Source of the DNA: Apostichopus japonicus
Lineage: Eukaryota > Echinodermata > Holothuroidea > Aspidochirotida > Stichopodidae
Assembly: GCF_037975245.1 (NCBI RefSeq)
Contig: NC_092574.1
Coordinates: forward strand, 5,820,713-5,884,712
DNA: 64,000 nt
Direction of reading: 5' to 3'
Numbering within the stretch: position 1 is the stretch's first letter; each line of letters starts with the position of its first letter. The position numbers and the translations under genes are program-made. Positions 4,129-50,985 of the stretch are shown piece after piece. The notes under the pieces are model-generated. The model worked only from the letters and a program-made list of their open reading frames with translations, was not told the DNA's origin and searched no databases.

Positions 4129-7100
4129 ATGTCATCTTTGGAGAGAAAGTTACTGATGAAATCGTTGGGAAGTACACTGCCTCCGATGCCACCTCCTGGA
4201 GTACCTGGAAGGTATGCTAGGCATTTAAGGCCATATTCAACCTAACCTAAGTTCTGCTTTCATTGAAAATTGGCAACTTAGGCCTATCCTTTAAATTGAA
4301 ATGCATCGGAAATTTGCTAGGCTAACCACATACTGTACAAATTAACAGTTGGTAGCCTAGAGGCTAGACTCTAAGCTTGTGTTAGTATGAGTTTTAGCAA
4401 ACACCAACACCATCTGACTCATGCAGTATCACTACTGTAACGTACATTTACAATACATGTACCGTAGGCCTAGAAATATTAAAAATGTTAAATGTTATGC
4501 AACCTAATGGTATTGATGGGATGTGGACCTGAATAACTGTATCTTACTTAACATAGCCTGAGTTTGTTTTCCATCATAATGTACTAACCCCAAGATTTAA
4601 TGCGAACTCAATACTGTGTCTGCAGTAAGTGTTTTCCTGAGTAATTTAGTTTGAAGTTAAAAAGATTAAAGTTAATTTTTGTATCCCCTTTTCAGTGGCA
4701 TAGCATAAGGGTAGAAGGGTATGGGCAGAGCCCTCCTTATTTTCAGTAAATTTGTGACACATTGTTATACTTCGGTATTCCTTTTTTAGTTAGTAGTTGA
4801 GTGATTATGCTTTGTTTGAAAGTTGTCCCTTTGACCAATTATCATTTTTGTCTTATGTTACTGTTTGCTTTCATTTTCACAGAAAGAAACGAAAAGGACC
4901 GCAAAGTAGAAGAAAGGACTATAGCCTGCTCCCTTGGAGTGACTATTTCTCCTCAGCCAAAGACTTAAAAGTTGATGATGATGACATATCCATACTTTTA
5001 CTATTTAAAGAAGGGTCATCTGTATTTTCCTAAGTATTTGTTAGAATGTTTCAAACTACTTGCATGTAGGCTCCAAGCATCCCAGGATGAAAAAGGACCA
5101 TTAGCAAAATAGTTAACATCTTTCCTCTTTTTAAATTTGTTTATAACTTTCCTGTCACTGGTATACATTTAACAGATTCAAGTACTACTGGCTATCGTTA
5201 ACAGCATCTTTCTTGTTCGTATTATGAGGTTAACTGTTAGTAATAAAATTGGTCCTAGATGCATATTGGTTCTAACTTGAAAGGTAGTCCACCTGCATGT
5301 CCTTTTCAAGGTACTTGTGTATAGAACCTTTATATCTTAAATTTTGGCTAAGTAATAGTAAGGAAAAAACCTGAATGACTTTTAAACACACCCCCTCCCC
5401 TCTCCCCCCCAAAAAACATAAGAAGATAAGTGATCATGCCAGAAAATGATTTGTTAAATTTTCAATAATAACTTTGACATTTTCCTGTTTCAATTTCACT
5501 CAAATTTATGTTTCTATTGTCCTTAATGGATTAACACATCTTCCATATATATGAGTGTGGCAGTGAAGGTCCTGTGGTTTTCATGATTCATGGTGGTGGT
5601 TTCTCTGGTCTGACCTGGGCAGTCTTGTCTGTAAGTACCTTTTGTGTACATTTATATTAAATTTTTATTTGTACATGTGAGCACTTTATCAATAGTTTTT
5701 CATAATTATTCTTCGTTCATTAAAACAAAAGTTCAATTGATGAAATGAAATTCTACACCACCAGATGTTTCAGCCAGTCATTGAATGTTATCTGTTGCAA
5801 CAATGAGCGATTTCCTCCAGCTCATGAAAACATTTAGGTTGCCAGCTTCACCAACTGAATTACTCTATAGAATTCAGGTGACACAAGTCAAAATGAACTG
5901 ATGATATGTGGATCATCCAGTACACTATGGCTCAAGTTTAATTTCTTCAAATTTACAGGCTACTTTGACTAAATTGGTGAAATGCAGAACATTAGCTGTT
6001 GATGTCAGAGGTCATGGAAACACAAAAACAAGTGAGGAAGATGATATATCAGCAGATAGACTAGCCAGGTAAGAGGAAGACTGCAGTAGATATTCATCCT
6101 AAATATGTCAGCAGGCGAGTAGCCAAGGGGGGGGAGGGGCGAAGGGGGCGACCGCCCCCACCCCCTTGAGCATATTTTTTTTGTGTACGTTTTCATGATA
6201 TTGCTAGTAATTTCAAAATAGAAAATGCTTAGATGCAACTTGCTATGCCTGGGAAGTGCCATTTCCAGCGATCTGGGAGGCATTTTCGGCCAAAATTTTC
6301 TTGGCCAGATTCCCAAACAAGTTGCGTTTCATGTCTTGGAGTATCAGAAAGTTCATCTGGTAAAAGAGAGTTAATGCCTTCAAAACAACCTTGTATAGAA
6401 TAATGAGCAAGCTATTGATTGAGCAGTTTCACCTGGTAATGTGGAATGCTGCTTTTTTATTAAGGTTCTGCTGCCCCTTGTTAGTCGCCCACACTATACA
6501 ACTGGAACATTCATTCAAGTATCATTCCATGAATCACAGTTTGGAAAAGTATTTTATTGACTTTCTGCCTAATTTTATCGCAGGGACATTGGAAAGATCG
6601 TCTCCACACGTTACAAGGATGAAACAGCTCCGCCTATCATACTAGTAGGGCACAGTATGGGAGGTGCGATCGCAATCCACAGTGCAGTTAAAAACCTGGT
6701 ACCCTCATTAGCCGGTATGGTGGTAATTGATGTGGTCGAAGGTAAGACTCTATGCCATAGGAATTTACGATAACGACCTTAATAATAGATTTGGAAAAAA
6801 AATTGTGGAGTAAGGATGTGGTTGGTACTGCACAGGGCAGCTAATAACCTGGTACCCTCATTAGCTAGTATGGTGGTAATTGATGTGTTAGAGAAGGTAA
6901 CACACTGTCATAGATATTAACAATAACAATTAAACAATATTTTGGAATAGATTTGAAAAGGGAGTAGGATAATATGGGAAGGAGGTATAGGGGGGGGGGA
7001 GGATATGGGGGGGGTTGCCTGCACAATAGCAACAGAAGTAACCACACCAACGTAACCATGTTTAATCTCTGGGTGATTAAAACCAGTTAATTGAAGTTAC

Positions 7101-10100
7101 CTTAATGCTGCATTTTGTATACTATGCTACAATCTTGTGGTAGTACACTAAGACTGGACCATTAATCGAAAAGATATGGAAAATAAAAACTAAAGGTGTT
7201 ACTCTTGTCCAACAAACTCACACCAGGAAAACTAAATTAGGTTTTAAAATCTCAAGGGTTTTGCAGGTGAAGGGCAGGTGAAGGGCTGGTGAAGGGCTGG
7301 TTGCAATCATATGATATCTTAGGTAGGTTCAGGGCTATACAATTTATATTACACGGTCATGGACAGAGTGACAAAGTTACATCCTAACACACAGTGCAGT
7401 GTGATGTACAATCACATCATATAAAACGCTGTCCTGATTCTTGATTAATGAACATCCTCATAAGCAAACTTGCTGTCCCGGATGTGTAACTTAGCCCTGG
7501 TCATTGGTAACTTGTCACGCCTACACACCAAAGGGTGCACAATTCAAACAATCTCTCCTGGGGCACCACAGTGCACCACAGCCATGTGTCCCCCGGGGGA
7601 CTTCCCATAGGGTGCAGCCGCAAACCGGCGCAAGCAACTATATGTACAAGTCACCTCGCAAGTCCCCATTTATACACCTGGGTGAAGAGAGGCAATGGAG
7701 ATAAAGCACCTTGCCCAAGGACACAACTAAATGATCTGGCCAGGCTTCGAACCTGTAATCCTTAGATCACAAGTCCACTGCCTTAACCAATTCACCACAA
7801 CGCCCTCTAGATTTCATCAAACTTATTGTTGGCATTTTCTTTTTCAGGAAGTGCTCTAGAGGCATTACAGAGCATGCAAAGTTTTCTGAAAGGACGACCA
7901 AAACAATTCCAGTCTATAGAGTATGCCATCGAGTGGGTGTGAGTATACTTCAGTTAAGCAACTAAAACCATGGTACCCCCATTGAGTGGGTGTGGGTATA
8001 CTTCAGATAAGCAACTAAAACCGTGGTACCCCAATTGAGTGGGTGTGGGTATACTTCAGATAAGCAACTAAAACCGTGGTACCCCATTGAGTGGGTGTGG
8101 GTATACTTCAAATAAGCAACTAAAACCGTGGTACCCCATTGAGTGGGTGTGGGTATACTTCAGATAAGCAACTAAAACCATGGTATCCCATTGAGTGTGT
8201 GTGGGTATACTTCAGATAAGCAACTAAAACCATGGTATCCCATTGAGTGTGTATGAATATAATTCAGATATGCAACTAAAACTGTGATACCCCTATTGAG
8301 TGGGTGTGGGTATACTTCAGATATGCAACTAAAACTGTGATACCCCAATTGAATGGGTGTGGATATATACAGTACTTCAGATAAGCAACTAAAACTGTGG
8401 TACCCCATTGAGTGGGTGTGAGTATGCTTCAGATAAGCAACTAAACCTGTGGTGACAACTTAAATAACATAAGCCATAATATTCAATGAACAGTCTTCCC
8501 ACCAGACTAGTGGATGTGGTAGGGTGAGTGAGGGCGCCGTTTGATCTTGTAAATACTAGTATGTTTCTATGATATGTTTCTATGATATGATTTGAAGTTT
8601 ATTCTTATTGTATTCTAGTGTATTCTAAACTATCGTAGTCAGTGAAGTTTGCAGGATTTTTTTTTCTCTCTTGCTTTCAGAACAAGGACAGGTCAAATAA
8701 AAAACCTTGAATCTGCAAGAGTGTCCATGATTGGTCAATTACAACCGTAAGTAAAAGATGCTATTGGCTGATGCTTCAAATCACCCACCCCACTTTTTCT
8801 TACTGTTTTACATAATTAAGGGATGAGATGCACATTGGTACAGCTGATCCCATCTGCTCAGTGCCAGCCCGATTAAAGCCATCTGTGGCCCTGAGGCAGG
8901 ATATCCCTGCCACCACCTCACACACCCCCCCCCCCCAAACTCATCAATTGAAAGTTGCTGTGTTTCTCATGGTAATTGTGTACCTATTCTTGTTTTTCAA
9001 GTCAATCACCATTAAAATATATTTAAATGTCTGAAATGCTTCTTGGGCATCAAGTCAATGATGACGTTGGCTCCTCAGTCCAGTCTTGAGAAAGTTTAAA
9101 TTCCAAAGTCCCTTCCAAGTACCCAATGAGATATATTCCAACATCATCTATTTCACATCAAATTACTTACTTTTTGCACGGCAGATATGTTCTTACATTG
9201 TCCAGTTGAGTTTTGTGTTACCCTTCCCTCACCCCCACCCACCCCCTACCCCCCACCCCAAGTTTAAATATAATTAAGAAACATTCACTCTCCTAGATGT
9301 TCATGCTCTTGTTGTTGATCATACAGAATGGACCAAAACGAAATGGCAGAGGGCAGCAGTCCAGAAGCTGGGACATCAATGGATGGTACAATCACAGAGG
9401 AAGGTGAAGAGGCTGCAGGAGAGACGGAGGTGAGGATGAGGGAAGGAAATGAAAAGTCACCTTATTAAAGAAATCTGTATTTAGTTCACTGTTGTAGATT
9501 GGATGGGGGGGTGTTTCGAAAGTCGTGGATGGCCCCCCCCCCCGCCCCAACATCTTCTTGTCATACCTCTATAAGTATATTGGTCTTCTTTGTGGGCCAA
9601 TCAATATTTTATGTAGAAATTACTGGCAGGGGAAAGAGAGTAATAATACTTTTGACTTGAATTTACTTTGACTGGAATAGAGTTAATGGTACAGATCATA
9701 TTTTTCATCCCCACCTGATAATTGTGATGTGTAACATAGTGGTTTCCTAATAAATTTCATATAAAGTGTAATCCTTGAAGTGGTTGCCAGGACCATTGTA
9801 TTAGGTAACAAATAACCCAGAGGAAAGCTGCTGGTATGAAGACAGTATCATTGGTCTTTACGTTTGAACATGAGCGACCATTCTTATCTCTTAGCATATT
9901 CATATATATTTAATATTATATATTTATATATTATTCTACCACATATGTTCCAGAATAAAACTGCCAATTTTTTTTTGGTTTTATTTTCAGAACCATGCTG
10001 CAGATACCGAGACAGTGCAACAGCCATACACGTGGAGAGTAGATCTCTCTAAAACTGAGCCATACTGGAAAGGTAACTCTGATTTATAGATTGAATGAGA

Positions 10101-13100
10101 AAATGTCAAGTTTTAGACATAAAACTTACCTCATTTTACAGAAATGCTTCATCAAACATGATAGTAACCTCAACTTATTTTAAAAATTGCCAAAAGTTTT
10201 CTTCAGCCTCAATTTCACCATGTAGCCTCCTTTTAGTTGTGGATGATTTTTTTTATCCCTGGTTGCCACCCCCCAACCCAATCCCAGACTATCTGTCTAT
10301 GCTGTTGGAAATATAGAATGGAGGGAGTGGCTGCAAGGCCAAGTTGCCGAGTGGATCGCTTGGAAAAATCTCGGAAGAAAGATCCCTCTTGTCCCATTCA
10401 CAAATTTACCACTATCGAATCTAAAACTGTAAATATTAATCACGGCAAGGAGAAGGCGGCATTTGATCTTTTTTATCCCTGATGGAAAAGCTACTCCTGT
10501 CATTGCTTGTAAGCATGAAGAATCTTCTTCATGGTGTTGTGGATGATGCATCTTAATTGTGGATGATGCCAAGTTGGATATTAATATCAAAATGTTGTTA
10601 ATTAAGTTATTTCATTTCTTTGATTTTGATTTTTTCTTTGATTTTTGATTTTTTTTTATTTCATTTAAGATGATGCATCTTAATTGTGGATGATGCTAAC
10701 TTGGATATTAATATCAAAATGTTGTTAATTAAGTTATTTCATTTCTTTGATTTTGATTTTTTCTTTGATTTTTGATTTTTTTTTATTTCATTTAAGATGA
10801 TGCATCTTAATTGTGGATGATGCTAACTTGAATATTAATATCAAACTGTTGTTAATTAAGTTATTTCATTTCTTTGATTTTGATTTGATTTGATATGATT
10901 TTGATTTGATTTTTTTTTTTATTTAAGATGATGCATTTTAAGTGTGGATGATGCTAACTTGGATATTAATATCAAAATGTTGTTAATTAAGTTATTCCAT
11001 TTCTTTCTCCTTTTCCAGGATGGTTTCAGGGTATGTCTAATCTCTTCCTGTCTGTTCCAGTCCCTAAGATGTTACTACTAGCAGGTAAAAATTTGCCCCT
11101 CTTTTCATATTCTACAAAAGCTAAGGCTAGCTGTCTGTCTGTCTGTCTGTCACTCTGTCTGTCACTGATGTTTTTTTTTCCTCAAAGTTTACTATTCATT
11201 GATTACAATGTATTTGTGAACAGGAAATTGGCATACATTTCGTACCATGCTACTCAAATACAACTGTATCCCTGATTGGATAACTGTCAGGAGTGAATCT
11301 AGGATTTTAACAACCCTCCTTCCCCACCCCCCCCCCCTCCCACCACCCACTGCCCTGTTCCATATTTTTGTCTCTCTACCGCCACCAACATATTCCTATT
11401 TTATACCACAATTTTGGAAGACAAAAACTTAGCTGATGTTACTAGCATTTCTTTTTTGAGGATCTAGGGGTGCATGTATCTTATAAAAGCTCTCTTTCCT
11501 CTCTAGGTGTTGACAGGTTGGATAAAGATCTTGCCATTGGTCATATGCAGGGAAAGTTCCAGATGCAGGTCTTATCTAACTGTGGCCATACCATGCAGGA
11601 AGACCAACCACAAAAGGTGATATTGAGACCTCACCATTGTCATACAGTCTAGCATTTAGCCCAGTTTATACACTCCTGACAAATTTGTTTTCTGGGTCTG
11701 AAATTACTAGCCAGATTATCTGGGTGTTTTTTCTTGATTAATTTATTTTCTTGATTAATTTTCTTGATTTTCTTGATTTTTTTATATATTTTTTTTCTAT
11801 ATTTTCTTTATTAATTATTAATTTCTTTATTGATTTCTTATTAATTTCTTTATTTGTGACAGTGGCTTGCTTATAAACCAAATAAACTGAAGATATATGG
11901 TGCTCATTTTACCTGTAGCGATACTGCCATGAGTGATGGATTTATATATCCATTTGAATAACTTTTATAATATTTATCCATTTAAATAATTTATTTGTTT
12001 CTGTGTGAATTGTGACTACCCCTATTGCAACTACCGATTCTGACAAAACCAACACACGAATTAAACTATAAGTCACTGAACGTTATCAGGTTTATTTTTT
12101 AATAATATATTCATATTTCATATTGATACAGGTAGCCGAGGCTATCGCAACTTTCCTCCTGAGGCACAAGATGACAGAAGCTCTCAGTGGATTTGAAAGG
12201 TAAAGCTGAAATGTTGTATGCTGCATGAAAACCAGGTTGAATTTTTAACTCTGGATCGGGAAAAAACTTGATGTGATGTAAATGTTATGGTCAGAGTGAA
12301 TGTAAGTGCTTGCATCAAAAAAAGGCAAAAACCAAGCATGTGGAGTTGAACCCTGGCTGCCCAAAGTAAAGGTTGGCTTCTCACCTTGGAGCAAACCATA
12401 TTTTAGAAACAGATGTTCCAGATGGAATATTTGTTTAAACTTTTAGTTTGACATCTTGAAAATTTCTAATTTGCTGCTTTGAGATGGGTAGGCATTCATA
12501 TTTTGAATAAAATTTCTGGAAATTTAAGAGTAAAAAGCAAATGTTGCTTTCACGAATGACAGCTTGATGTAAATAAGAAACATTTTAGATGCAACTAATC
12601 TTATAAAAAAATATGACTTCATATCTTCAAGGAGTTGGGCAGCTTATTAATTATTTTGTGCAAATTTGTTGGTTGCTTAATTCTTTTATGTGACATTATC
12701 GATACAAGTAAACACACAGGACACAGTAATCTTATAGCAGCTGAGTGTGCTTGTGTAGAATCACTCTTAATATCTCCTGCTACAGAAATATGCTGAGTTT
12801 GTTGCACCCTACATGGAATCAGAAGTTTAATTTCTTGACAAATTGTGTTCCTTTCAACACCCAATATCGGCGTCACTTTGCACTTTTCATAACATGTATG
12901 AAGCAGCCTGTTGGGACAGTTTCCTAATGCTAATACCACACTATACTGTCTTCTCTTACGATGCTTCAAAGCACTTGTACTGACAGTATAAACAGTTTCT
13001 AATCTTTATCGGATAGGAACATGAATATGGAGACTGCTTTGTACATACTGACATCACAAGTCCTTTTGAAGTAAGACTTCAAAGTTCAGTGTAGGATAGA

Positions 13101-15600: not shown

Positions 15601-16304
15601 ACATTTGATAGGAATACTCCATATGACATTGAAGGTATTGAAAAAATTGATTTTAGTGAAAAATCAAACAAGTTTGAATCAAAAGCAGACTTTGTACAAC
15701 TCGGAGCATGAAAATAAAGTGAATATTCAATATTTCCAAGTTTTGTTACACAGTTTTTCATACTTTTTTGTTTTTTTGGTTCCATTGTTAAAATTTGATC
15801 TGTTTATTTTGCTAATAAAAGCAAATAAACCCGGCCATGCCTACCTACACAGCCTAAGTCCTTTACTTGAATATTGTTTACTGAACCAGAATCTTAGCAT
15901 ATCAAATCAAGGTGCATCATTCTTTTCCTAAATTTTAGTGCTTTTGTCCAAAGCAAAATAATCCTTTACATGTAGAATGCAAGGTGTAAGTAACTTTATA
16001 TCTCTCAAAATGCTAATACAAAATGGCTACACAAATAAATTACAAACTTTCAAATTGTTTAAATTTCCAATCTACTGGACCTGTATTGGTTTTCTTACAT
16101 GTTCAAACTGAACTCACTTCGTTAATGAGTTTTTTGAACTTCATCTACACATGATGTTGGTCTAATTGTAACTCCAATTCTCTGCATAATTCTTGCTCCA
16201 ATGGAGTATTTAAGTTTAAGTTGGTAATTTATAACCCTATCAGATGTGATATCAAACAGACATTTCAATAGGTACAGGGTCAAGGTATATGCAAAAAAAA
16301 AAAA

Positions 16305-17515
16305 AAATCGATTTCGCCCAAATGACGTAACAGGGAGTAATCGATGCTCAGGAGCCCAAATCTGCAACTCCCAGGTCCATATCTGCTTCCGTTCGGGAGA
16401 TACGTGGTCCCAAAGTACAAGATAGAAATACGTGTTCTTTATAAGTGCAAAATTTGAAAAAAAACCCTCTTTTCAGCCCCTCTCTTGTCCTCTCTGAAAC
16501 ACCCATCGACATTAAACTTAGACGTGGAGTAAAAGACACCCTTGTCTTTGTTATACACCAATTTCGTGTAACTATCTGACCGGGAAAGGCTTTTTGTCTA
16601 TATGATTTCTATTTGCGCCAAAAATAGGTGTTTTGTCTTGAAAAGTTAAAAAAGTACCTCTTTTTGGTACCCAATTCCAAAATAAACTTCAGATTCGTAA
16701 TCAGCGTGTCGCGAACTACCAGAAAAGATACACATTTATTGCCTTTGCGCCCTCTTATGACACTTTTTTCGCTCAGTTTGCAACTTCACAGGAACAATAG
16801 AAAAGCGAAAATCTTTTAGGGACAACAAAAGATTTTAATCCTTTGTTCGTCGTAAAAGTTCTTCGCTCTTACTTTTTTTGAGGTGAAAAAACTTGTTGTC
16901 GCAAAATCGATAAATGTGGATCTTTTCTGGTAGTTCGCGACACGCTGATTACGAATCTGAACTTTATTTTGGAATTGGGTACCAAAAAGAGGTACTTTTT
17001 TCACTTTTCAGACAAAATACCTATTTTTGGCGCAAATAAAAATTGCCAAAAATTGACCCAAAATCGATTTCGCCCAAAAGACGTAACAGGGAGTAATCGA
17101 TGCTCAGGAGCCCAAATCTGCAACTCCCAGGTCCATATCTGCTTCCGTTCGGGAGATACGTGGTCCCAAAGTACAAGATAGAAATACGTGACTGTTCTTT
17201 ATAAGTGCAAAATTTGGAAAACCCCCTCTTTTCAGCCCCTCTCTTGTCCTCTCTGAAACACCCATCGACTTTAAAATTAGACGTGAAGTAGAAGACGCTC
17301 TTGTCTTTGTTATACACCAATTTCGTGTAATTATCTGACCGGGAAAGGCTTTTTGTCCATATCATGTCTATTTGCCCCAAAAATAGGTGTTTTGTCATGC
17401 AAAGTTAAAAAAGTACCTCAATTTGGTACCCAATTCCAAAATAAAGTTCAGATTCGTAATCAGCGTGTCGCGAAATACCAGAAAAGATATACATTTATCG
17501 CCTTTGCGACAAAAT
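16305..17515. repeat. Composite direct and inverted repeat A-B-B'-A-B
   Basis: Block A (16305-16600) recurs in direct orientation 756 bp downstream (17061-17345), sharing CGATTTCGCCCAA and GGGAGTAATCGATGCTCAGG. Block B (about 16610-16750) recurs inverted at about 16905-17044 and again direct at about 17369-17512, sharing AATCAGCGTGTCGCGAA. The B/B' pair could fold into a stem of about 140 bp around a spacer of about 155 bp. Short open frames on both strands arise from these copies and resemble no known protein. It ends just before the tRNA-like array. Origin unknown; a foldback or nested transposon is possible. Confidence 0.8.
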
Positions 17516-17635
17516 GTTTTTCATTTTTTATGACACATACACGTTTGAGGCACTGAACATGACCCAGAGCAGTAACAACTACATTTGCAATTCAGTTCAT
17601 AAAACTACAGGCAACTTAGATGGAACTTCTATACC

Positions 17636-20330
17636 TCAGTGTTCTTGGTAGTGCTCTGAAACGCAAAGAGTCAGATAAATGCGAAATCTGCGGTTCAATT
17701 CCCAGTTGAGGCTTTTAATTTTCTGATCTTTTCTTCCTTTCTTTCTGAGGTTTAAATATTAGAAACGAGCATTATTTCTCATCAGTTACAGTGGCGCAGT
17801 TGGTAGTGCTCTGAAACGCAAAGAGTCAGATAAATGCGAAATCTGCGGTTCAATTCCCAGTTGAGGCTTTTAATTTTCTGATCTTTTCTTCCTTTCTTTC
17901 TGAGGTTTAAATATTAGAAACGAGCATTATTTCTCATCAGTTACAGTGGCGCAGTTGGTAGTGCTCTGAAACGCAAAGAGTCAGATAAATGCGAAATCTG
18001 CGGTTCAATTCCCAGTTGAGGCTTTTAATTTTCTGATCTTTTCTTCCTTTCTTTCTGAGGTTTAAATATTAGAAACGAGCATAATTTCTCATCAGTTACA
18101 GTGGCGCAGTTGGTAGTGCTCTGAAACGCAAAGAGTCAGATAAATGCGAAATCTGCGGTTCTATTCCCAGTTGAGGCTTTTAATTTTCTGATCTTTTCTT
18201 CCTTTCTTTCTGAGGTTTAAATATTAGAAACGAGCATAATTTCTCATCAGTTACAGTGGCGCAGTTGGTAGTGCTCTGAAACGCAAAGAGTCAGATAAAT
18301 GCGAAATCTGCGGTTCAATTCCCAGTTGAGGCTTTTAATTTTCTGATCTTTTCTTCCTTTCTTTCTGAGGTTTAAATATTAGAAACGAGCATTATTTCTC
18401 ATCAGTTACAGTGGCGCAGTTGGTAGTGCTCTGAAACGCAAAGAGTCAGATAAATGCGAAATCTGCGGTTCTATTCCCAGTTGAGGCTTTTAATTTTCTG
18501 ATCTTTTCTTCCTTTCTTTCTGAGGTTTAAATATTAGAAACGAGCATAATTTCTCATCAGTTACAGTGGCGCAGTTGGTAGTGCTCTGAAACGCAAAGAG
18601 TCAGATAAATGCGAAATCTGCGGTTCAATTCCCAGTTGAGGCTTTTAATTTTCTGATCTTTTCTTCCTTTCTTTCTGAGGTTTAAATATTAGAAACGAGC
18701 ATTATTTCTCATCAGTTACAGTGGCGCAGTTGGTAGTGCTCTGAAACGCAAAGAGTCAGATAAATGCGAAATCTGCGGTTCAATTCCCAGTTGAGGCTTT
18801 TAATTTTCTGATCTTTTCTTCCTTTCTTTCTGAGGTTTAAATATTAGAAACGAGCATTATTTCTCATCAGTCACAGTGGCGCAGTTGGTAGTGCTCTGAA
18901 ACGCAAAGAGTCAGATAAATGCGAAATCTGCGGTTCAATTCCCAGTTGAGGCTTTTAATTTTCTGATCTTTTCTTCCTTTCTTTCTGAGGTTTAAATATT
19001 AGAAACGAGCATTATTTCTCATCAGTTACAGTGGCGCAGTTGGTAGTGCTCTGAAACGCAACGAGTCAGATAAATGCGAAATCTGCGGTTCAATTCCCAG
19101 TTGAGGCTTTTAATTTTCTGATCTTTTCTTCCTTTCTTTCTGAGGTTTAAATATTAGAAACGAGCATTATTTCTCATCAGTTACAGTGGCGCAGTTGGTA
19201 GTGCTCTGAAACGCAACGAGTCAGATAAATGCGAAATCTGCGGTTCAATTCCCAGTTGAGGCTTTTAATTTTCTGATCTTTTCTTCCTTTCTTTCTGAGG
19301 TTTAAATATTAGAAACGAGCATTATTTCTCATCAGTTACAGTGGCGCAGTTGGTAGTGCTCTGAAACGCAACGAGTCAGATAAATGCGAAATCTGCGGTT
19401 CAATTCCCAGTTGAGGCTTTTAATTTTCTGATCTTTTCTTCCTTTCTTTCTGAGGTTTAAATATTAGAAACGAGCATTATTTCTCATCAGTTACAGTGGC
19501 GCAGTTGGTAGTGCTCTGAAACGCAAAGAGTCAGATAAATGCGAAATCTGCGGTTCAATTCCCAGTTGAGGCTTTTAATTTTCTGATCTTTTCTTCCTTT
19601 CTTTCTGAGGTTTAAATATTAGAAACGAGCATTATTTCTCATCAGTTACAGTGGCGCAGTTGGTAGTGCTCTGAAACGCAAAGAGTCAGATAAATGCGAA
19701 ATCTGCGGTTCAATTCCCAGTTGAGGCTTTTAATTTTCTGATCTTTTCTTCCTTTCTTTCTGAGGTTTAAATATTAGAAACGAGCATTATTTCTCATCAG
19801 TTACAGTGGCGCAGTTGGTAGTGCTCTGAAACGCAAAGAGTCAGATAAATGCGAAATCTGCGGTTCAATTCCCAGTTGAGGCTTTTAATTTTCTGATCTT
19901 TTCTTCCTTTCTTTCTGAGGTTTAAATATTAGAAACGAGCATAATTTCTCATCAGTTACAGTGGCGCAGTTGGTAGTGCTCTGAAACGCAAAGAGTCAGA
20001 TAAATGCGAAATCTGCGGTTCTATTCCCAGTTGAGGCTTTTAATTTTCTGATCATTTCTTCCTTTCTTTCTGAGGTTTAAATATTAGAAACGAGCATTAT
20101 TTCTCATCAGTTACAGTGGCGCAGTTGGTAGTGCTCTGAAACGCAAAGAGTCAGATAAATGCGAAATCTACGGTTCAATTCCCAGTTGAGGCTTTTAATT
20201 TTCAGATCTTTTCTTCCTTTCTTTCTGAGGTTTAAATATTAGAAACGAGCATTATTTCTCATCAGTTACAGTGGCGCAGTTGGTAGTGCTCTGAAACGCA
20301 AAGAGTCAGATAAATGCCATATCTGCGGTT
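17636..20330 (+). repeat. 155-bp tandem array of tRNA-like units
   Basis: About 18 head-to-tail units have an exact period of 155 bp; the conserved GTGGCGCAGTTGG starts at 17791, 17946, 18101, 18256 and so on to 20271. Seventeen units carry TGGCGCAGTTGG, a perfect match to the Pol III A box TRGCNNAGYNGG, and GGTTCAATTCC, a perfect match to the B box GGTTCRANYCC, with starts 55 bp apart. T runs (CTTTTAATTTTC) follow each B box and could act as Pol III terminators. The first unit (17636) has lost its A box, and the last degenerates after its B box. D-arm pairing is possible, but the T-stem has mismatches, so these are tRNA-like rather than functional tRNA genes. A few units have CTATTCCC in the B box, and three adjacent units share an AACGAG variant, showing local homogenisation. 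Confidence 0.93.
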
Positions 20331-20404
20331 CAATTCCAGGTTAAGGCTTTTACTTTTCTGATGTTTGGAGAAGGTGGAAGTATAAATATAAGGAACGAAG
20401 TTTT

Positions 20405-20490
20405 TCCATTGGGAACCAAAATGGTGTAATGGGTAGCTCCGCTACCTATGAATCATTTGATCAATCCTGCCAGTGTGGGTTCAAGTCCTA
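20405..20490 (+). repeat. Separate tRNA-like sequence with A and B boxes
   Basis: Immediately after the 155-bp array lies a different tRNA-like segment: AATGGTGTAATGGGTAGC resembles an A box and GGGTTCAAGTCCTAGG contains a perfect GGTTCRANYCC B box. It differs in sequence from the array unit, so it is not a simple decayed copy. Function as a tRNA gene is not supported, because a clean cloverleaf is not visible. Confidence 0.5.
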
Positions 20491-20737
20491 GGTGAGCAAT
20501 CGCTGCAAAAGGACTTCGCTGGATAGGTTGGTCTGGTACCCAACCCCCCCCCCCGGCGGAACAAGGTGAGTTTCGCGGACCCCCTCCCCCTGACAAGGTT
20601 CCAGCGCGGACTAGGTGAGTTGCGCGGACCCCCTCCCCCTGACAAGGTCCCCCTCCCTCCGAAGGGGAAAACTCTTTTAAGGAAAACATACTAAGTACCC
20701 ACAATTGGATGTTTAAATATTTTTATTGAAAGCTAAA

Positions 20738-20815
20738 TCACTAGCCCACCTTATGGTCTGGTGGAAGACAAACATTTTTTGGAACACAAGGTCCCTGGTT
20801 CAATCCCTACTTCTG
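20738..20815 (+). repeat. Third tRNA-like segment with B box
   Basis: CCTGGTTCAATCCCTAC holds a B-box match (GGTTCAATCCC) preceded by CTTATGGTCTGGTGG, a weak A-box candidate. An A-rich and CA-rich tract (20850-20915) follows, as is common behind retroposed tRNA-derived sequences. Probably a tRNA-derived relic. Confidence 0.4.
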
Positions 20816-20949
20816 CTTTGCTTCTTACATTTTACTTTTGCCCCAAACAAACACACACATAAAAAAAAAAACACTCACAAAAAAAAAAAAAACCTCCACA
20901 CACACACAAACACACACGCACTGCTAATTTTTCACATGTTTTAGCAGCT

Positions 20950-23493: not shown

Positions 23494-24520
23494 CTTTCAT
23501 TCAAATCTTTTGATTGGCTCATGTCAGGAAAGACCATTTTACATAACAACAACAACAACAACCAAAGATGGTTGATACTTGATCATGCAAAGTATAACAG
23601 ACCAATTAAAAATACAAGAGTATTTTCACTTCATCTCAAGGAATAATACCATCATAAAAAGATTGAATCGGTGGTTTCTTTTAAAAAAGTGTACTTCAGA
23701 GTTACTTCCATCTGGCTCCCTCTGCCTAAATCTAACCAATATAACCACTGACTGAACTCACCAATGTGACTGACTCAACATGGACTAAACTCATGTCCGT
23801 ATAAATGTTTTCATTCAAATCTTTTGATTGGCTCACGTCAGAAAAGGCCATTTTACACAACACCAGCACCAAATAAACACTTGACAATTGATCACGGAAA
23901 GTATAACAGACCAATTAAATACAAAAGAATATTTTCACTTCACATCTACAAATTTTTGTATAAAAAGATTAAATCGTTGGTTTCTTTTAAAATAGTGGCC
24001 GCCTTCAAAGTAACTTGCATCTGGTTACCCTTTACCTAAATCTAACCAATATAACCACTGACTGAACTCACCAATGTGACTGACTCAACACGGACAAAAC
24101 TCAGGTCTGTATGTTTTCATTCAAATGTTTTGACTGGTTCACGTCAGAAAAGACCATTTTACACAACACCAAAAAAACACTTGATAATTGATCACGGAAA
24201 GTATAACAGACCAATTAAAAACAAAAGAGTATTTTCACTTCATCTCTACAAATTTTTGTATAAAAAGATTGAATCGTTGGTTTCTTTTAAAGTAGTGGCC
24301 TTCAAAGTAACTTGCATCTGGCTACCTTTGCCTAAATCAAACCAATATAACCACTGACTGAACTCACCAATGTGACTGACTCAACATGGACTAAACTCAT
24401 GTCGGTATAAAATGTTTCCATTCAAATCTTTTGACTGGTTCTCATCAGAAAAGACCATTTTACACAACAACAAAATACAGTTGATACTTAATCAAGCAAA
24501 GTATAACAGACTAATTAGAC
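23494..24520. repeat. Imperfect ~300-bp tandem repeat
   Basis: Units share TTTTGATTGGCTCA, CAGAAAAGACCATTTTACA, AAAGTATAACAGACCAATTA, GAGTATTTTCACTTCATCTC and ACCACTGACTGAACTCACCA. The landmark GATTGGCTCA (or GACTGGTTC) occurs at about 23512, 23826, 24130 and 24431, giving periods of 314, 304 and 301 bp. It lies downstream of the PGM2 stop codon. Noncoding. Confidence 0.85.
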
Positions 24521-26044: not shown

Positions 26045-29000
26045 TTAGTCCTCCTTGCCTACGAGGCCGTTCAGCTCGGGTTGGAGCAGCTCCTTCACAA
26101 AGGTCTTCACAAATGACTTGAGTTTTACTTCCAAGCTGGATTTACCACTGCAAGAAAGGGCAAGAGATGGGCTTGATAAAACATTTGAGATTCCTGTTAG
26201 CCTTGAGTTATGCAAATTACTTTTCTAGTTTATATTGTTCACACTTCTGAAGATCTCACAATTCCACACAATTCTGCACACAATACAGATCCATTATAAG
26301 ACATTTCACTTCAGATTTAAAGAGTTGCGTATCCTCCTTTTCCCCAGAAAAAAACAAAAACAAAGTGTTTTACAGTTTACTAAGTTAGGCACTACCACTC
26401 GAGAGGAGCGCCTTAACTTTTTTGGTCTTTTCCAACAGATTACATCGAACATATTGCATCTAAACATTAAGAGGAAAGTTTAAAGAAGTATCCAATCATT
26501 TATACTCTTGATACTACTACACACCACATAGAGTGATCGCTACAGTAACAGTTGTTGGAGTACAATACTGTAGTTTTCCTATCCTATTAGGCCATTGGTG
26601 TGTATTCCTTGCAAAGATACATACAACCTAGCCAGGTAGGGAGGGGTTGTAACTTTCTATTCTTAATATTTCTTAGGAAAGTTAGAAAATAAAAAATTCC
26701 CAGGACATACCTGACTGACATGTCACCAAAGATTTCGGAATAGTATTTAATCTTGGGCTCTGTGCCGCTGGTACGCAACGTCGCGATGCATCCATTCTCA
26801 AAGTTGAAGGTGATCATGTGACTAGATTTACTGGTAGGAAGAATCTAAAAACGGAAAAACGAAACAGACGAAGACAAACCTCAAATGAGAACTGGTCTCG
26901 ATTAAACGGTTCTGCAACCGTGCATGACTAGCAGAAATTTTTTATTTTATCATGTCTCCCCCCCCCCCCCCACCCAAGGTCACTGAGATGGCATTTGAAA
27001 TTAATCCATGGGACTTAAAAGTGGGAATTTGGTAAACAGAAGTGTTTTTTCTAACATTTATATCTTTTCATGTTTCTTTCTTCTCTCCATGTTTTGTCTA
27101 CTAATCCTTTTACATCTATCTCATTTGTGTTCACCCTGCTCATTAACCTGTCTGTATTCTGTGCGTGTATTTGTCCCATCTGTTACTGTAAATTGTCGTT
27201 CAGCCTCTGAAGAAGATCCTGCTGGGATCGGAATGTCAGGCCCTCTTACTTTTACACATCTTTTCATATTGGTAAATGAATAATTAGTACTTAATAAATC
27301 ATTAGTAAAATAATGAGTAATTGAATAATGGAAACCAGAACTGGGGAATTAAAGACTTTCTGTGACTCTTATCCATTGTTTATATCTTTTGTGAGGAACA
27401 ATAAAATGAAACGGGGACGCCTACAGTGAATCACAAGAAGCTATAGAAGGATGGGCCTTGGGGTTTTAATATTTCTAGAACCTTTTAGTAACAATCAGTT
27501 GGTTTCAATTCTACTCACTGCTTTATTGTCAGGCTGGTTGTTATCATATCCAGTAGTAAGATCTCTGAGGCCCGTTATCTTGACTCCACCGACCTGCGAT
27601 GGATACTGCAGGGGAAGGGACAAAAAAAACGTTACTAACGTTTGTAGGCTGGCTCGGCAGTGACTCAGTACTTCCACAATAAATGTGTGATCGACATGTC
27701 AGGCTGTCAACTCAGAAAATAGCATAGAGATTGGAAACACACAACGAAAATGTTGCACATGCGATGGCTTGAACTTAATAAGGCTTAATGAAGAATTTAT
27801 ATCGTCAAAAGGAGGTGTATTATGCGCAAGCAAAAGCTACAGCCTGAATTGAACGACCAGGATGCAAATATACTGACTGTGAAGGGCCAGTCTGCCATTC
27901 ATGTTTAAGATAAGGGATGGATTAACTGTGTTCCTGTCAACCTAATTCATCCCCATACCGGGGCCAGGGTCTCTTCACCCCTCCCCCACCACACTTTCAT
28001 AGCGAGTCAGGAAAAATGTCAGTCAGGGGACTTGTTTACATTCAGTCGAGAAGAAAATAAACCACTAACTGCATTTAGACCTAATTCTAGACCGAAATTT
28101 ATAGTCTACAATAAGCCTCAGATGGCACCGATTGACTTTTAACATCCCCCCCACCCCACCCCACATGGGAGTCTGCTTCAATGACCATAGGGCCTCTCAA
28201 TTTTTCAATTCAATTTCTTTATCCCAGTATAAATTACAAAATTTATAAATAGGACACATAATGATAATGATACATAAAAGACGTAAAAATGTACAATCAT
28301 GAAAACATGAACAAATAAGAAATAAGATGGAGGATTAGAAGTTTGAAAGACTAAAAGGATTATAACATAGATTCTAAAAACCCATTTTGAATATAAATGG
28401 CTGCTCTGTAGATAAATGAGTTCTTAAAAAGCATAATTCTAAAAGTTGGCAAGATCATAGGATTACGTAGATTGTACTTGTTGGTTCTATTGCACAGAGA
28501 GGTCAACCCGGAGTGAAGTGGGTGATCTTTAGAACTATGTATAGTCTTAGCTAGTCTTATGAATTCATTTTTAGCAGCAGTGTTTACTTTACCAACCAGG
28601 CTTTCATAGTTGAGATTAAATATATTTGAGCAGTATTTCAAGAAACTTCTAATTCTTTTCTTGTCCTTTTCAAGTAGAAAGTGATACCAGACAGGAACTG
28701 CATACACAATCACTGGCAGAATTGATGAGTTGAAAACCTTATCTCTTACAACTGCCTTTCTCTAATGCTATATCAGATTGACCACTTCTATAGAGATTCC
28801 TGCCACTACCTCAACAAGTGGTGTGGAGATATACAAATTTAACCCTCACCACACCTTTGAATTACTCTGCACACTGTCTTCCCCCCCCCTACTCTTCCTT
28901 CCCCCTGCCCTCACCCTTTCCTGAGCAAAACATAAGAACAAGACGACTCACAGATCCATCCTCCATAGACCTTATTCTTTCGAAGATGGCTTTCGTCGTG

Positions 29001-32000: not shown

Positions 32001-34697
32001 ACCGTAAGAACACATCTGTTGTTAAGCGGGGGAAAAGAAAGTATTTTCTAAAATTCCCCAAAAAATGGAAAAAATAATATCCTACTATAGTTAAGTGTAT
32101 AGCAAATAGCCTAACCACCTCGGCGGTTACGGATCTCACGTAACTAAAAAGTTCCCTGGCAACGTGCCAAAAAATGTTAACAAGCAGGTGTTACACAGGG
32201 GATAAGCTCACAGTTACTTTGGGAAGGTACCTGGGAAAATTTGCAGCACATGTACCGTGGTAGTTGGGTACAGGGTTAAACACTGCAGTTGTAAAAATGT
32301 ACGCATAGTGCACGCTATTTATTGTTAGGCAGTCTAGAAACAGGGCTTTGCTGAACGTTGTTTGTTTCATGATATCGGAAGTTTTGTAAGTTGCACTTTT
32401 TAAAGATTGAAAGACAGATTAAATCTCTTTTCGTTTTATATAATTATATAGGTACTCTAACTTGTCATTTTAAAATTTATCAGTTTCGTGAAAATTTAAA
32501 TAAAAAAGTTTTCAGTATTTTGTGTTCGTGGGAAATTGAACAAGGTTTTCCAACACTGCTGAACTGTGCAGTTATACATCATGTTCAAGGTTTTCACGGA
32601 GGCCTTTGAGAAAATGAATGGTTAGTACTGTGTATATGCTGCACTAAAGCTGTGTGTAGGCCAAGGTTCACGAAGGTCATTGGTTATATTCGCTCGTCGT
32701 AGACATGTTTTTAGAGGTTACGGAGGGTCAGGTTTCCATGGATATTAATCGAAAATGAATCTGAGTTTAACTGACGCTAAAGAAATGAATCGTCTTGGGC
32801 AGATTAACAGATCATTGCAAGTATAAAGAAGTAGCTCTGCTGTTAAAAAGAAAAGTTCAATATTGGTTTGCTGTTATCGGCAATTAGGCAAAATTTTACC
32901 GATACGGATATGCTGCCGATATTGCAAATATCGGCCGATACCGATATTGAAAACGATTATCGTAGCAACACTACTTAAAACCCTTTGTTTGACAAGTATT
33001 AAACTTTAATATAGACCAATACATCAAAAACAGCTGATATCAGAGATAAATAACCTAGATCATGGAATAGAATTTCCAATAAACCACAAATGATGCAAAT
33101 AATTGTATGACATCCACAACTATTTTCAGTGAGTTTCGTCTTTGTGTCACAATGAAATTCTCTGCGCTCTGGTTCATAAATAAAAAACTGATACCTCTTA
33201 GAAGAAGTTTGAAAAAAAAGAAAAACCAATGTCCAAGGAAGGAGTTAAAGGGAAAAGTTTCTACAGCCAAATAGAGAGAAAAAAATACTTAAATGAAAAT
33301 AATACTAATTAACATCACTTTAACACTCTTTTACTCTTCAAAGCTTATTCACAACAGACAAATGTTTGAGGATTATAAAAGAATGATTTTTTACCTCAAA
33401 TATGAATCCCTCTTTCTCCGCAATGTGTTTCAGCATCTTAGAAGAAACAGCACTGGCAAACATATGGACATCTGCATGAAAAAGAAAAAGAAAAACAAAA
33501 ATGAACAAGCAACGATACAAAAAAGAAAACAAAAGAAATATACACAGAACAAAAAACAAAATAGAAAAAAAAACAATTCACAATAATACTGAAACAATAC
33601 ATTATCCTCAGACAAAATGCAGTTTAACCGCGCTTGTTGTCCATTCATGGAGTGTTAGCTCAGTGGTTAACGCCGGTGCCTTTCAATCATAAGGTCCCTG
33701 GTTCAAGTTAATCCCAGATTAATGTATGTCGTCCAGTTACAGAGTTGTTGACAATTAACAATTCATAATCATGGACGTTAAATATGAATGTAAGAGACGA
33801 ATTCGGTCAGCTTGCGGCTTTGATAAGCCAATGAGGCTCCTTCACAAGTTCCTGCTTGCAGGAGGATCTAAAATACATACGTACATACAAATACATACAT
33901 TCAGATATGCAGTGTCACTTACCGTTCCAATGGCTCTGTTGTTTCTTCTTGTAACATTCCAGTATCCACCACCCTAGCAGGGCACCTAGCTCGTTTCCGT
34001 TAAACACTTTCCAGGAGCCGTCTTCCAGTTTCTCCGCCACGGCTAACCTATCGGCATCTGGATCGTTGGCGAGAATCACCCGGCTTCCGTTTTCATCCGC
34101 TGTTTTGAATGAGATATTGAGGGCGCTCTTGCCCTCCTCTGGATTTGGGTTCTTGACGGTCGTGAATTCGGGATCCTCTTCAACCTAAAGAGAGATGGCG
34201 AGAGAAGCGGTTAAAATAAGTGAAATCTCACTGTATCGAATCTTTCATCAAATATCGCGTTGCAAATCGGTATGCAGAATGTGTCAAATTGCTGTACAAG
34301 TCCTACGATGTATGGCAGGTTCTAGGAATCATGGTATCTTATATGAGACAAAATTTCAGAGTCTTCCAAAACTGGTTAAACAAACTTTTGAACACAAAAT
34401 TATTTTAGGATCCAAATAAGTAGTGCAGAACACAAGTTTATGTGCAACAGCAAAAACGCACAAGGTCCCAAGTACACTAAGGGAGTTTGGGTTTGCACTA
34501 TGTATTGATCCCAAACTATGCATTTCTCTGGAAATGTGGCTTAAAATTGAATCCCTAAATAGATGGCAATGATTAAATTAGAGAAATGAGCTACTCACTA
34601 ATATTTAACAGTTAGGTCACAATGTAGTTGAATTCTTCATGCTCATGAAAAGTCATACTATCAGGTCATCAAATCCCCCCTCCAACCCCCACCCCCA

Positions 34698-34742
<45 letters not shown>

Positions 34743-37700
34743 CAGCTTTTTGTGTGTGAAGTTTCCTTGTTTCTGCATAATTTGAGAAACTATTGCCCCC
34801 AAAGTGGGAAACATGTTAATAAAAAATGAACAGATAATTATTATTTTCCATTTCCTTTGTAAGGACATAATCCTGCCACCATCGATTCTCCTAAAAAAAA
34901 ATATCCTCACTTGTTCCTTGACCAGAATCAATTCCTTGAATCCAAAATTTTGAAACATGGCTTTGAAGGCTGGCGTTCCCACACCGTGCATGGCTGTGTA
35001 GGTGAATTTCAATTTAGTTTCGGCGTTAATTTCTCTGAAAAAAAGATTTAATGTTACTTCGATAAACAGCCATAGAGACATGATTTTTGTACATGTTAGA
35101 GCATAGCTTGCCTGTGCAGTTGAATCTTTTCGCAGTTATTACAGTTGGAGTAAGAAAACTATGAATGTGACAGAACTTTGGTACTTGATTTACAAGTTAA
35201 CTAGGTTGCTAACAACATAATGAATTAAAGGAAACTCACTAATGTCTAGAATTCATTGTTTCTCTTCCCACACCGAACCCACTCCCCCACTTCGTTCTCT
35301 TCCCACACCCAACCCACTCCCTCCCACTTCGTTCTCTTCCCACACCCAACCCACTCCCGCACTTTGTTCTTTCCACACCCAACCCACTCCCCCACTTCGT
35401 TTTTGTAACACTCTTGATAGAGAACTTTCTCACATAGGCACAAGTACTCTCTCTTGCATGGCAAAGTATATAATAATAACATTTCCCTTTATATTAAATA
35501 TGCTTGTTAATTCTTTTATACAAAATTAAATGCAGCAAGTGTGAGTTTAGGAACAAGGATGCTGAACAAACAGAGAGTAAATTATTAAAACGTGTTTGGT
35601 ACCAGGTCATTATTATGCTGGTGATTGCATAATAATATAATAATATTTACTTTCTTTTAGGAACAAGGTTGCTGAACAAACAGAGAGTACATTTTTAAAA
35701 CGTGTTTGGTACCAGGTCATGATTATGCTGGTGATTGCATAATAATATTTACTTTCTATATAGCGCTTTATACCAGCGATAGGTCTCAAAGCGCTTTACA
35801 GGCGTTATATTATCCCTGGTCAATGATAACCTGTCCCAGAGACAATCCCTCCAGTGCCCAATGACAAGTTACATCACAGGTACCCATTTAACCCCTGGGT
35901 GAAGAGAGGCAAGTAAGATAAAGCATCTTGCCCAAGGACACAACGTAATGAAATAGGCAGGAATCGAACCAGATATCCTTGGATCACGAGTCCGACGCCT
36001 TAGCCAATTGGCCACCACGCTCTCACAACCCAACTGAGATATATCAGAGAATATATACATACCTGTGTAGGCACATAGCAGATGTAATATCCTTCATGTA
36101 AGAATCAAAGACTTCTTGGTAAGGATCTGTTACCAGGGCATTATCTGTGAGGATAGAGGTATCCCAAGAATGTTGCCAGGGTTCCAAATTAGCATGGATA
36201 GCTGCAGCAATACCCTTATCGACAGGTGGAATGATCTACAGAGATACATTAAACACCAGACAAGATATTAGTGCAATTCATGAGCATCTATTCATCAATG
36301 GACATACCTAATAACTGTTAGCATGGATAGCTGCACCGATACCGTTATCAACATGTGGAATGAACTACAGAGATTATAAAAACTAGACAGGAAAGTACTG
36401 AAATTCATCAGTATCACTTCATCAACAGACATACCTAATAAATGTTACTTGTTAGCTTGGAAAAATGCAGCATACCCTTATTAACAGGTGGAATGACCAA
36501 CAAAGATATGTTCATACCATGTAGGAAAGTAATGACAATTAACAGGAATCCTTATGTGCTTGAATCGTCCCAGAAACGACAACCAAAGCAATACCCTACG
36601 AAGGAGGTGGAATGGCCGACACAGAAAACTTCACACCAGCTTAGAAGGAAAAGCAAAGGAACTTACACATATCCCAACATCAATCAATCATTTTTTAAAC
36701 AAGCTACATGCTAGCATGGACAACTGCAGCTAATACCCTTAGCAATAGGTGAAATGATTTACTGTCTAAAGATAAATACACGCCAGATCAGAAAGTGAAG
36801 GCATTCGCAGGACTATAAATGTCAATTTATCAACAAATCAAATGGCAACAAAGTTGACATGAATAGCTGATTTAGTACCATCACCAACACCTTTATGAAA
36901 CATATTTAGTAGAATATGAAAATATTTGTCTTCCATAAATATGAATATTTTATTTTACATACACAGGACAGTCCATTATTATGGATCTTTTCATTTTAGA
37001 AACTACACAAATTAACGTCCAGTAATGGAAACAGGATGACGAAATATTAATCTTATCGAAACGCGATATATTCTTGGACAAATAAGACTCCTCACCTGTG
37101 CACCGTTTCCCCAGTAGACTTTATAGCCGTTGTCTCCTTTGGGGTTATGAGAGGGCGTTACCATGACACCGGCCGCCAGATTCTTCTTCCTGATGACATA
37201 AGCCTGTCAATTTAAGGGAAAACTAATAATCAATTTAAGAACTTAACAAAAATTGATGATAAACCGGTTTGGATGTGTAGACGTCAGAATTTACGAGTGT
37301 GAACCGTTCATGACAACTTAGCATGCAGTGCTTGTGCAGCCTTCTTTATCATTCAAGTTTCAGAAACTTGAGGCTAATCATCAATTTGGCATAATTATTG
37401 GAACATTGCTATTAATGTAATAAAACTCACCACAAATGGAGTTGGCGATGTGTGTGAGAATAGATAGACAGGTACACCTGCCCTGACCATGATAGCTGCC
37501 GACAGATCTGCATATCTGTGGAAGAAATCACGGCAGAAACGATGTCGACAAAAAGATCTCCAGGGTTAAATTAAGCAAGATTAGACTAGGGTTGGTTAAA
37601 AAGGAGGTCTACAAAGTTTGTATCTCCTTTAAACCAATTACAAATCATCATAATAATTAATGATTAGCAGTTTTTATATAGTGCAACTTACAATAAAGTT

Positions 37701-49457: not shown

Positions 49458-50985
49458 GCGTCCCATAATAACGTTTATCCTCCTTGCCTTGCTGGTGGAT
49501 CTGTCGTATTGCCAGAATCTGAATGGACTGTTATCAGGCGGATCCGATGAAAATTGCGTTTACATCTTTACTATACCTAGAGGAGACGAGGGGAGCTGTC
49601 CTAGTTTAACGGAAGCGGCAGGGAGTCTGACGGAGGCGAGCTCGCCGTTGTCTCTGTTAGGTAGGCCTGAAGGTCAATATGACGTAGCTGGGGTACTATA
49701 TATAGGGAGGGAGAAGGAGGGGGGGGGGGATTGCAGAGGAGCCCATGGCAGATCACCTCCTACCGTGCAATCTTACACCCAAACTGAAATCAAAATAGTA
49801 GTTACGAGCACAAATTTGCGTCTAGAGCTTATGTTATAACTCTTGTTTATTATGTTTCCCTCGTTTATGTAATGTTGAATCCGCCTATGATCCCAACTAT
49901 AGTACTACAGTATCTCCGACCCTGTGTCGACCAACAATGAGTATGAATTTGGCCTTAAGTTTATCCTAAGCCAGCCATGACGATGTAACGTTTGTGAAAA
50001 CTCGTTTCCCTCATGTCCATCACTGACATGAGACTTCCGACTACGTCATTTCGTATAGTAGGGGTATATCCCTTTCCTTCTCGTAATAAGTTTGCAAAAA
50101 GCCTATACATCGAATTTTCAAACGATATATAAAAAAAAGAAGCTTTTACTGTAAATGTAATATCAACTTGTACATTAAACAACCAGCAACTATAACAGTA
50201 ATCATGTTTATCTCAACTGTTATTTGTTGAGAGAAGGTTTCATCCGACGAAAATCGTTTCTTCTGTTGCTATACTTTCCCCTGAGAATTTAAAGACCAAA
50301 ACCATCACTTTATGTTTTCGGTCTCTCTCTTTTTATCTATTATTTTATAGCTTACTATCCATTGGATTGCGATTCCAAGGATCACTCTGACAACGGCAGA
50401 CACGGAGCAAACATTGGCAGTGCATTGTACAGCGAGGACGCGAAATGTGGGAACAGTCGTTTCTTTAATGGTGCCAGTAAAATACAAGTCGATGCCTTTA
50501 ACGGGTTCAATTGGGGTCAGGCCTTTAGCGTGAGCGTATGGATCAAACGCACTGGACAGGCCGGTAACTACCAAGGTGTCGTTAATAACGGGTATTATTC
50601 CACTGGTAGCTGGGAGATCCGCATGGGGAGAGAAGACGGTGGCACCATGATCGGGGGAGGTGTTGTCACCAGCAATAGCCCCAGAACATGGGACTACCAG
50701 ATCACTGGACGTGTGCTCACTCTGGATGAATGGCACCATGTCGTGATGGCCTATGATGGTGCCGATGGAAGCTTGAAATATTACATAGACGGCGTGGAAC
50801 GTAACGGGGACGAAAGTTGTTGTTCCGGTGCTCTCTTAGTGAAGAATACCCCACTGACCATTGGTCAAGCAGGTAGTGGTTCTTCAACTGAATACTTTTA
50901 TGGTTTCATCGACGAGGTGAAGCTGTTTGCCGAGACATTGACTGCCGATGATGTATCGAAACTGTACAACACACCATGTCAATGA
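49458..50985 (+). CDS. Secreted LamG/ConA-like domain protein 1 (5' end missing)
   Basis: Two exons are seen, 49458-49660 and 50351-50985, joined in phase at G|CT. Exon 1 opens after a good acceptor (CTACAG) and encodes RPIITFILLALLVDLSYCQ, a hydrophobic stretch like the end of a signal peptide; no ATG lies in frame before an upstream stop, so the start codon must be in an earlier exon not identified. Next come about 45 residues with a two-cysteine module (ENCVYIFTIPRG...C). Exon 2 encodes a roughly 205-residue laminin-G/concanavalin-A-like jellyroll (LamGL type): FSVSVWIKRTG, WEIRMGRE, EWHHVVMAYDG, a CC pair, NTPLTIGQAG and STEYFYGFIDEVK. The domain family often binds glycans or matrix proteins; the ligand here is unknown. 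It is paralogous to the gene at 54424, about half identical by eye. Confidence 0.8.

Follow-up and report, generated by a model that had tools for sequence, protein, structure and literature searches.

A tandem array of tRNA-like, polymerase III cassette-like units between two convergent genes of Apostichopus japonicus

What is a head-to-tail array of tRNA-like promoters doing between two protein-coding genes? It might be a cluster of genes for a small RNA, a chromatin boundary, a satellite seeded by a short interspersed element (SINE), or the product of DNA-level duplication of a single RNA polymerase III (Pol III) cassette. We addressed this question in a window of DNA from Apostichopus japonicus, the window being the whole stretch of 64 kb that was analyzed. 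A first-pass annotation had reported in it, at positions 17636 to 20330, about 18 head-to-tail units of 155 bp, each carrying an A box, a B box, and T runs.

Extent, uniformity, and setting of the array

Tandem Repeats Finder placed the array at 17645 to 20366 (+ strand), with a period of 155, 17.6 copies, 98% matches, and 0% indels. Together with motif counts, this confirmed the reported organization. The array was indeed found at the reported coordinates, although its limits had to be corrected and a diverged relative lies further to the right. Unit-by-unit comparison identified 16 complete units at 17785 to 20264, each of which departs from the consensus by 0 to 2 bases; six of the 16 match it exactly, and the mean pairwise difference among them is 1.55 of 155 bases. 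Some variants are private to one unit, and others are common to separated units. A comparison of neighboring units with distant ones gave no significant excess of likeness among neighbors (P = 0.13), so that exchange between neighboring units found no independent support.

The 5' side of the first copy is missing up to a point within the A box, which is therefore incomplete. The last recognizable unit (20265 to 20409, + strand) is identical to the consensus for 53 bases, after which the unit differences and the alignment reveal growing divergence with alignment gaps. A leftward continuation of the array past 17645 found no support, its alignment score being reached by 95 of 500 shuffles. As a uniform head-to-tail array, the locus is satellite-like; it comprises 17.6 copies over about 2.7 kb and is the sole locus known within the 64-kb window.

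Two genes lie on either side. On the + strand, exons at 6573 to 6770 (E = 2e-17) and 11446 to 11649 (E = 8.4e-14) were matched to protein phosphatase methylesterase 1 (PPME1; PDB). On the − strand, a phosphoglucomutase/phosphomannomutase domain was found above the Pfam cut-off at 33918 to 34184, and further domains of this type were found below the cut-off at 34656 to 35135 (E = 0.00029) and 26590 to 26844 (E = 0.0036). The two genes are therefore convergent. The domain matches agree with the earlier placement of the array between convergent PPME1 and PGM2 genes as far as PPME1, a PGM-type gene, and their orientation are concerned, PGM2 itself being the name given in that annotation. The array occupies a gap of roughly 15 kb and lies about 6 kb from each last detected exon.

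Several other repeats are present in the window. Left of the array, 16304 to 17521 is a composite repeat in which two direct copies, each about 450 bp long and sharing 94% identity, are accompanied by an inverted one of about 460 bp (79%). Further arrays that resemble minisatellites or satellites, with periods from 35 to 300 bp, are located at 7926 to 8453, 10542 to 11006, 23495 to 24517, 35260 to 35401, 39728 to 40054, and 43276 to 43672. Tandem Repeats Finder reported five other arrays with a period of 100 or more in the window, which indicates that tandem duplication is frequent in this DNA. Besides, two open stretches on the + strand (50293 to 50982 and 55079 to 55771) each gave a Laminin_G_3 domain match, the latter with an additional pentraxin match below the cut-off; they may be a pair of duplicated genes. 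When pieces of the unit were used in exact-match scans, nothing was returned from viral contigs or from bacterial or archaeal genomes, which is expected for an animal sequence and has no bearing on animal genomes.

Promoter-like layout of the units and their right-hand neighbors

The first complete unit (17785 to 17939, + strand) is identical to the consensus in the unit-by-unit comparison, and motif distances were used to describe its layout. The tRNA-like part covers unit positions 1 to 84, with the A box at position 8 and the B box at position 63; runs of four T are located at positions 84, 90, and 100, and a TATA-like motif at positions 121 to 130 stands upstream of the next unit. The array has 17 copies of the A box, TGGCGCAGTTGG, and downstream of every one (17 of 17) there are a B box and short T runs. 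The distance from A to B is 55 bp in all 17 units, which is at the long end for tRNA genes, and the start of the first TTTT always lies 21 bases beyond that of the B box (17 of 17). As for the B box itself, 15 of the 18 in the array read GGTTCAATTCC and the other three, at 18157, 18467, and 20017, read GGTTCTATTCC, so that the one-base variant mentioned in the first-pass annotation was borne out. The variant carries a T at B-box position 6, where the consensus has a purine, and the alteration of three of the 18 boxes implies that not every unit is protected by selection.

Judged by the general consensus sequences, the unit has the A and B boxes of a type 2 Pol III promoter at a tRNA-gene-like spacing, with three of the 18 B boxes one base off. 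When the doubled unit was dinucleotide-shuffled 2000 times, such a pair appeared in only one shuffle, which excludes chance as an explanation for the paired A and B boxes. The T runs of the array are just four long, and this weighs against the reading of the unit as a cassette.

The first-pass annotation had overlooked a TATA-like motif, GTTTAAATAT, which is located 42 bp upstream of the A box in all 17 units; an example is found at 17750 to 17759 (+ strand), 42 bp 5' of the A box at 17792. A more general motif, RTWTAAATAT, composed after inspection of the sites, is present 42 or 43 bp upstream at all 19 A-box sites, i.e., 17 exact matches in the array and two flanking sites assigned by hand. 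On the + strand it occurs at only two places elsewhere in the window, and the counts outside the region (60,750 bases) are two on the + strand and three on the − strand. Assuming a start site about 10 bases before the A box, which is our own estimate, the TATA-like motif would lie near −30, the usual place of TATA-like boxes in type 2 Pol III genes (PMC10137851), and the transcript would be about 90 to 105 nt long. With a candidate external promoter, A box, B box, and terminator, the unit resembles a whole gene cassette more than it resembles a SINE.

A strongly diverged further unit, missed by the first-pass annotation, lies beyond its coordinates at 20380 to 20496 (+ strand), and the repeat alignment runs on from the last unit into this stretch. 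Alignment and motif distances define in it a TATA-like GTATAAATAT at 20380, an A box TGGTGTAATGGG 42 bp downstream at 20422, and a B box GGTTCAAGTCC at 20478. The local alignment of 20365 to 20500 with the repeat scored 57, a value that none of 500 shuffles reached (maximum, 36). Taken alone, the upstream part scored 31 against a shuffle maximum of 27, and the body scored 35 against a shuffle maximum of 28. The score of the body could come in part from the general likeness of tRNA-type promoters, an objection from which the score of the upstream part is free. Since the upstream region and the body both align, the duplication appears to have included DNA beyond the predicted transcript. No T run of at least four was present within about 160 bp of the B box of this unit.

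Further to the right, a third element (20711 to 20840, + strand) combines GTTTAAATAT at 20711, an A-box-like TGGTCTGGTGG at 20754 with one departure from the consensus, and a B box GGTTCAATCCC at 20797, and its first T run begins 33 bases after the start of the B box. We rejected this element as a sequence relative of the unit: the alignment of 20690 to 20840 was matched by 137 of 500 shuffles, and with the off-consensus A box this reduces the likeness to one of layout only. Neither flanking element (20380 to 20496 or 20711 to 20840) gave a tRNA match at E up to 10. The DNA between the second and third tRNA-like elements contains C-rich short direct repeats (CCCCCTCCCCCTGACAAGG) at 20543 to 20660.

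Relation to tRNAs, other RNA families, and SINEs

A covariance-model scan of the unit, which had been suggested as a check of its tRNA-like nature, turned out negative with the Rfam tRNA model (RF00005). When 4 kb was scanned, the model listed nine of the 17 units, eight at 19.0 bits and one at 22.2 bits, all under the cut-off of 29 and with E values of 0.29 to 2.1 (for all 4227 Rfam families); the remaining eight units had no tRNA match at E up to 10. When the whole window was scanned, no array unit gave a tRNA match at E up to 10, a result that counts against the cassette reading, and at the Rfam gathering thresholds the 64 kb contained no match to any family. Default ARAGORN likewise reported no tRNA. 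Within the array region, relaxed ARAGORN (-ps80) made 18 calls, of which 13 were Leu; we discounted these calls because the same threshold with introns gives 117 across the window. A partial cloverleaf drawn by hand, which has no anticodon arm, amounted to −3.5 kcal/mol versus −18.6 kcal/mol for the MFE fold, and the MFE fold itself was no better than those of shuffles (z = 0.19; 108 of 200 folded as well). The cloverleaf with an anticodon arm that a functional tRNA has was not obtained.

A functional tRNA array was therefore rejected on the Rfam and ARAGORN scores and on the fold, and the array unit is not a functional tRNA. The earlier term "tRNA-like" holds for the promoter and does not extend to a tRNA score above the Rfam cut-off or to a stable fold. 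Vault RNA was absent among the Rfam matches at E up to 10, both for the array region and for one unit; invertebrate vault RNAs may be too diverged for the Rfam model. Matches to snoR117 over the array, at 16.7 bits versus a cut-off of 42, were taken as chance.

We also compared the unit with SINEs. The doubled unit had no blastn match at E up to 1 in the window with 17630 to 20420 masked; the same search missed the body of the diverged neighbor and thus excludes close copies only. Inspection by eye found no SINE body, LINE-related 3' end, tail, or target-site duplication in the unit. The T runs directly follow the tRNA-like part, and about 70 bp later the following unit begins. This position of the T runs and the location of the TATA-like element outside the predicted transcript do not support the SINE-seeded satellite that had been offered as one option, and the unit is probably not a SINE.

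The window does contain a tRNA-headed SINE-like element, two copies of which (7646 to 7807 and 35864 to 36024, both on the − strand) are 80% identical over 162 bp. Their likeness begins about ten bases before the A box and excludes the upstream DNA. The copy at 35864 to 36024 fell slightly short of the Rfam tRNA cut-off, at 28.6 bits, and the DNA at 37714 to 37902 is 94% identical over 189 bp to DNA that partly overlaps and follows the copy at 7646 to 7807. We considered this element as a source of the unit and rejected it, as no similarity was found. One of the SINE-like copies has an AT-rich TATATATT in its flanking DNA, 43 bp upstream of the A box. Since such a sequence can be there by chance, the position of the TATA-like motif alone is weak evidence, and the argument against a SINE therefore rests on the sequence common to the units and the diverged neighbor.

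Interpretation and comparison with known systems

The locus is probably a small local cluster of tRNA-like Pol III cassettes, whether genes or pseudogenes, one of which was amplified at the DNA level. In each cassette of the array, the A and B boxes would be preceded by a TATA-like element at about −30, and the tRNA-like part is followed immediately by T runs; DNA-level duplication may have amplified one complete cassette head to tail. From the uniformity of the units and the variants common to separated units, we propose that the array has a young core, kept uniform by recent or repeated unequal exchange; an older right-hand cassette, and perhaps a second one, may have decayed. TFIIIC would bind to the A and B boxes and TFIIIB would be positioned over the TATA-like element, and Pol III would then synthesize from each unit a predicted RNA of roughly 90 to 105 nt that ends at the first to third T run. 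We infer from the boxes that the units may be competent promoters, and we propose that the unit probably originated from a tRNA-like gene rather than from a SINE. It is a more doubtful proposition that the locus represents a lineage-specific family of tRNA-like non-tRNA small RNAs, with an external TATA-like and internal A/B promoter, arranged in a nucleosome-sized array of 155 bp and adjoined by older diverged members.

Alternatively, the cluster might be functional, in which case the units would be the copies of a working gene that encodes a vault-like, 4.5S-like, or new small Pol III RNA, and they would be uniform because this RNA is needed. This would fit with the joint presence of a TATA-like motif, both internal boxes, and T runs in 17 units and with the retention of the TATA-like element and both boxes in the strongly diverged 20380 to 20496. 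However, we think it unlikely, given that no Rfam family reached its cut-off anywhere in the window, that vault RNA was not among the matches at E up to 10, that the fold is no better than those of shuffles, and that three of the 18 B boxes are altered. Another possible origin is an inserted tRNA-headed SINE, the head of which was amplified in tandem together with flanking DNA. SINE-seeded satellites are documented in squamate reptiles (PMC10702118), and this genome has tRNA-headed SINE-like elements, with two headed copies in the window. Such an origin is nevertheless improbable. The unit had no blastn match (E up to 1) to the SINE-like element or to the rest of the window outside 17630 to 20420, a search in which strongly diverged copies would be missed, and it has no SINE body or tail discernible by eye. 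Furthermore, an external TATA-like element is common to the units, the external region is also present in the diverged neighbor, and no longer terminal unit ending in a complete SINE was seen, unlike the common pattern in the cases set out in PMC10702118.

Seventeen successive pairs of A and B boxes, located in the roughly 15 kb that separate the last detected exons of the convergent genes, might also suggest a TFIIIC-bound boundary between PPME1 and the PGM-type gene. We consider this very unlikely: no boundary role is visible in the sequence, the B boxes are altered in three of 18, and in our judgment there is no evident reason why two convergent housekeeping genes, each at a distance of about 6 kb, should require one. 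Least credible of all is an assembly artefact, either in the copy number or in the very existence of the array. The exact copy number may be wrong, as the units are nearly identical, but the shared and private variants, the gradual divergence of the last unit, and the joining of both edges to other sequence would not be expected from a simple looped assembly.

At this locus, units with the appearance of complete Pol III cassettes make up a satellite-like array, and the adjoining diverged relative records part of its history. If transcribed, the array would be a compact multicopy small-RNA gene missed by standard tRNA and RNA-family annotation; if silent, it would make it possible to examine in a natural setting whether chromatin between two protein-coding genes is shaped by tandem TFIIIC/TFIIIB sites.

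In subject searches of the literature we recognized no description of this array, although one could have been missed. The first-pass annotation had called tandem tRNA-like promoters unusual. This is too strong, since amphibians are known to have tandem repeats that contain tRNA-like Pol III sequences (PMC10702118), and the array is a variant of already described tandem repeats with Pol III promoters. According to PMC10702118, OAX/satellite I of Xenopus, PolIII/TAN of Cynops, Rana/polIII of green frogs, and Hy/polIII of Hydromantes share with the array a tRNA-like or Pol III-type sequence within a tandem unit, and PolIII/TAN is capable of in vitro transcription. The amphibian units are longer, however, at about 360 nt in PolIII/TAN, 250 in Rana/polIII, and 200 in Hy/polIII versus 155 bp here, and OAX is called too long for a proper satellite (PMC10702118). 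Rana/polIII accounts for up to 10% of some genomes (PMC10702118), whereas the array is known from one locus of about 2.7 kb. Compared by description only, the array unit also differs from the amphibian repeats in being one complete cassette with a TATA-like element, and the authors there consider the amphibian repeats inconclusive as SINE-derived satellites (PMC10702118). The SINE-derived satellites of squamates (sSats) resemble the array in having tandem units with tRNA-related SINE sequence and in being more uniform in longer loci; in contrast, their sequences correspond to known dispersed SINEs, and in most of them a longer terminal unit extends to the end of the SINE (PMC10702118), whereas neither feature was found here in the 64-kb window.

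Tandem Pol III genes are known from other lineages as well. The SYY cluster of Arabidopsis (PMC12308677) and the tRNA gene arrays of Entamoeba (PMC2652664) are tandem like the array but encode tRNAs, whereas the array unit fails the tRNA tests. TATA-like and poly-T motifs are noted for an SYY-derived transgene (PMC12308677), a TATA box is found upstream of about 22 to 32% of plant tRNA genes (PMC11700998), and TATA-like boxes in Pol III promoters are the subject of PMC7279448. The rodent 4.5SH genes are also arranged in tandem repeats, as is the array, although the 4.5SH unit is 4 to 5 kb long with proven RNAs (PMC10137851) and the array unit, at 155 bp, is known from its sequence alone. The genes for 4.5SH RNA and the tRNA-derived 4.5SI RNA have a TATA-like box at −31/−24 in addition to A and B boxes; thus, like the array unit, they combine a TATA-like box near −30, both internal boxes, and a T-run terminator (PMC10137851).
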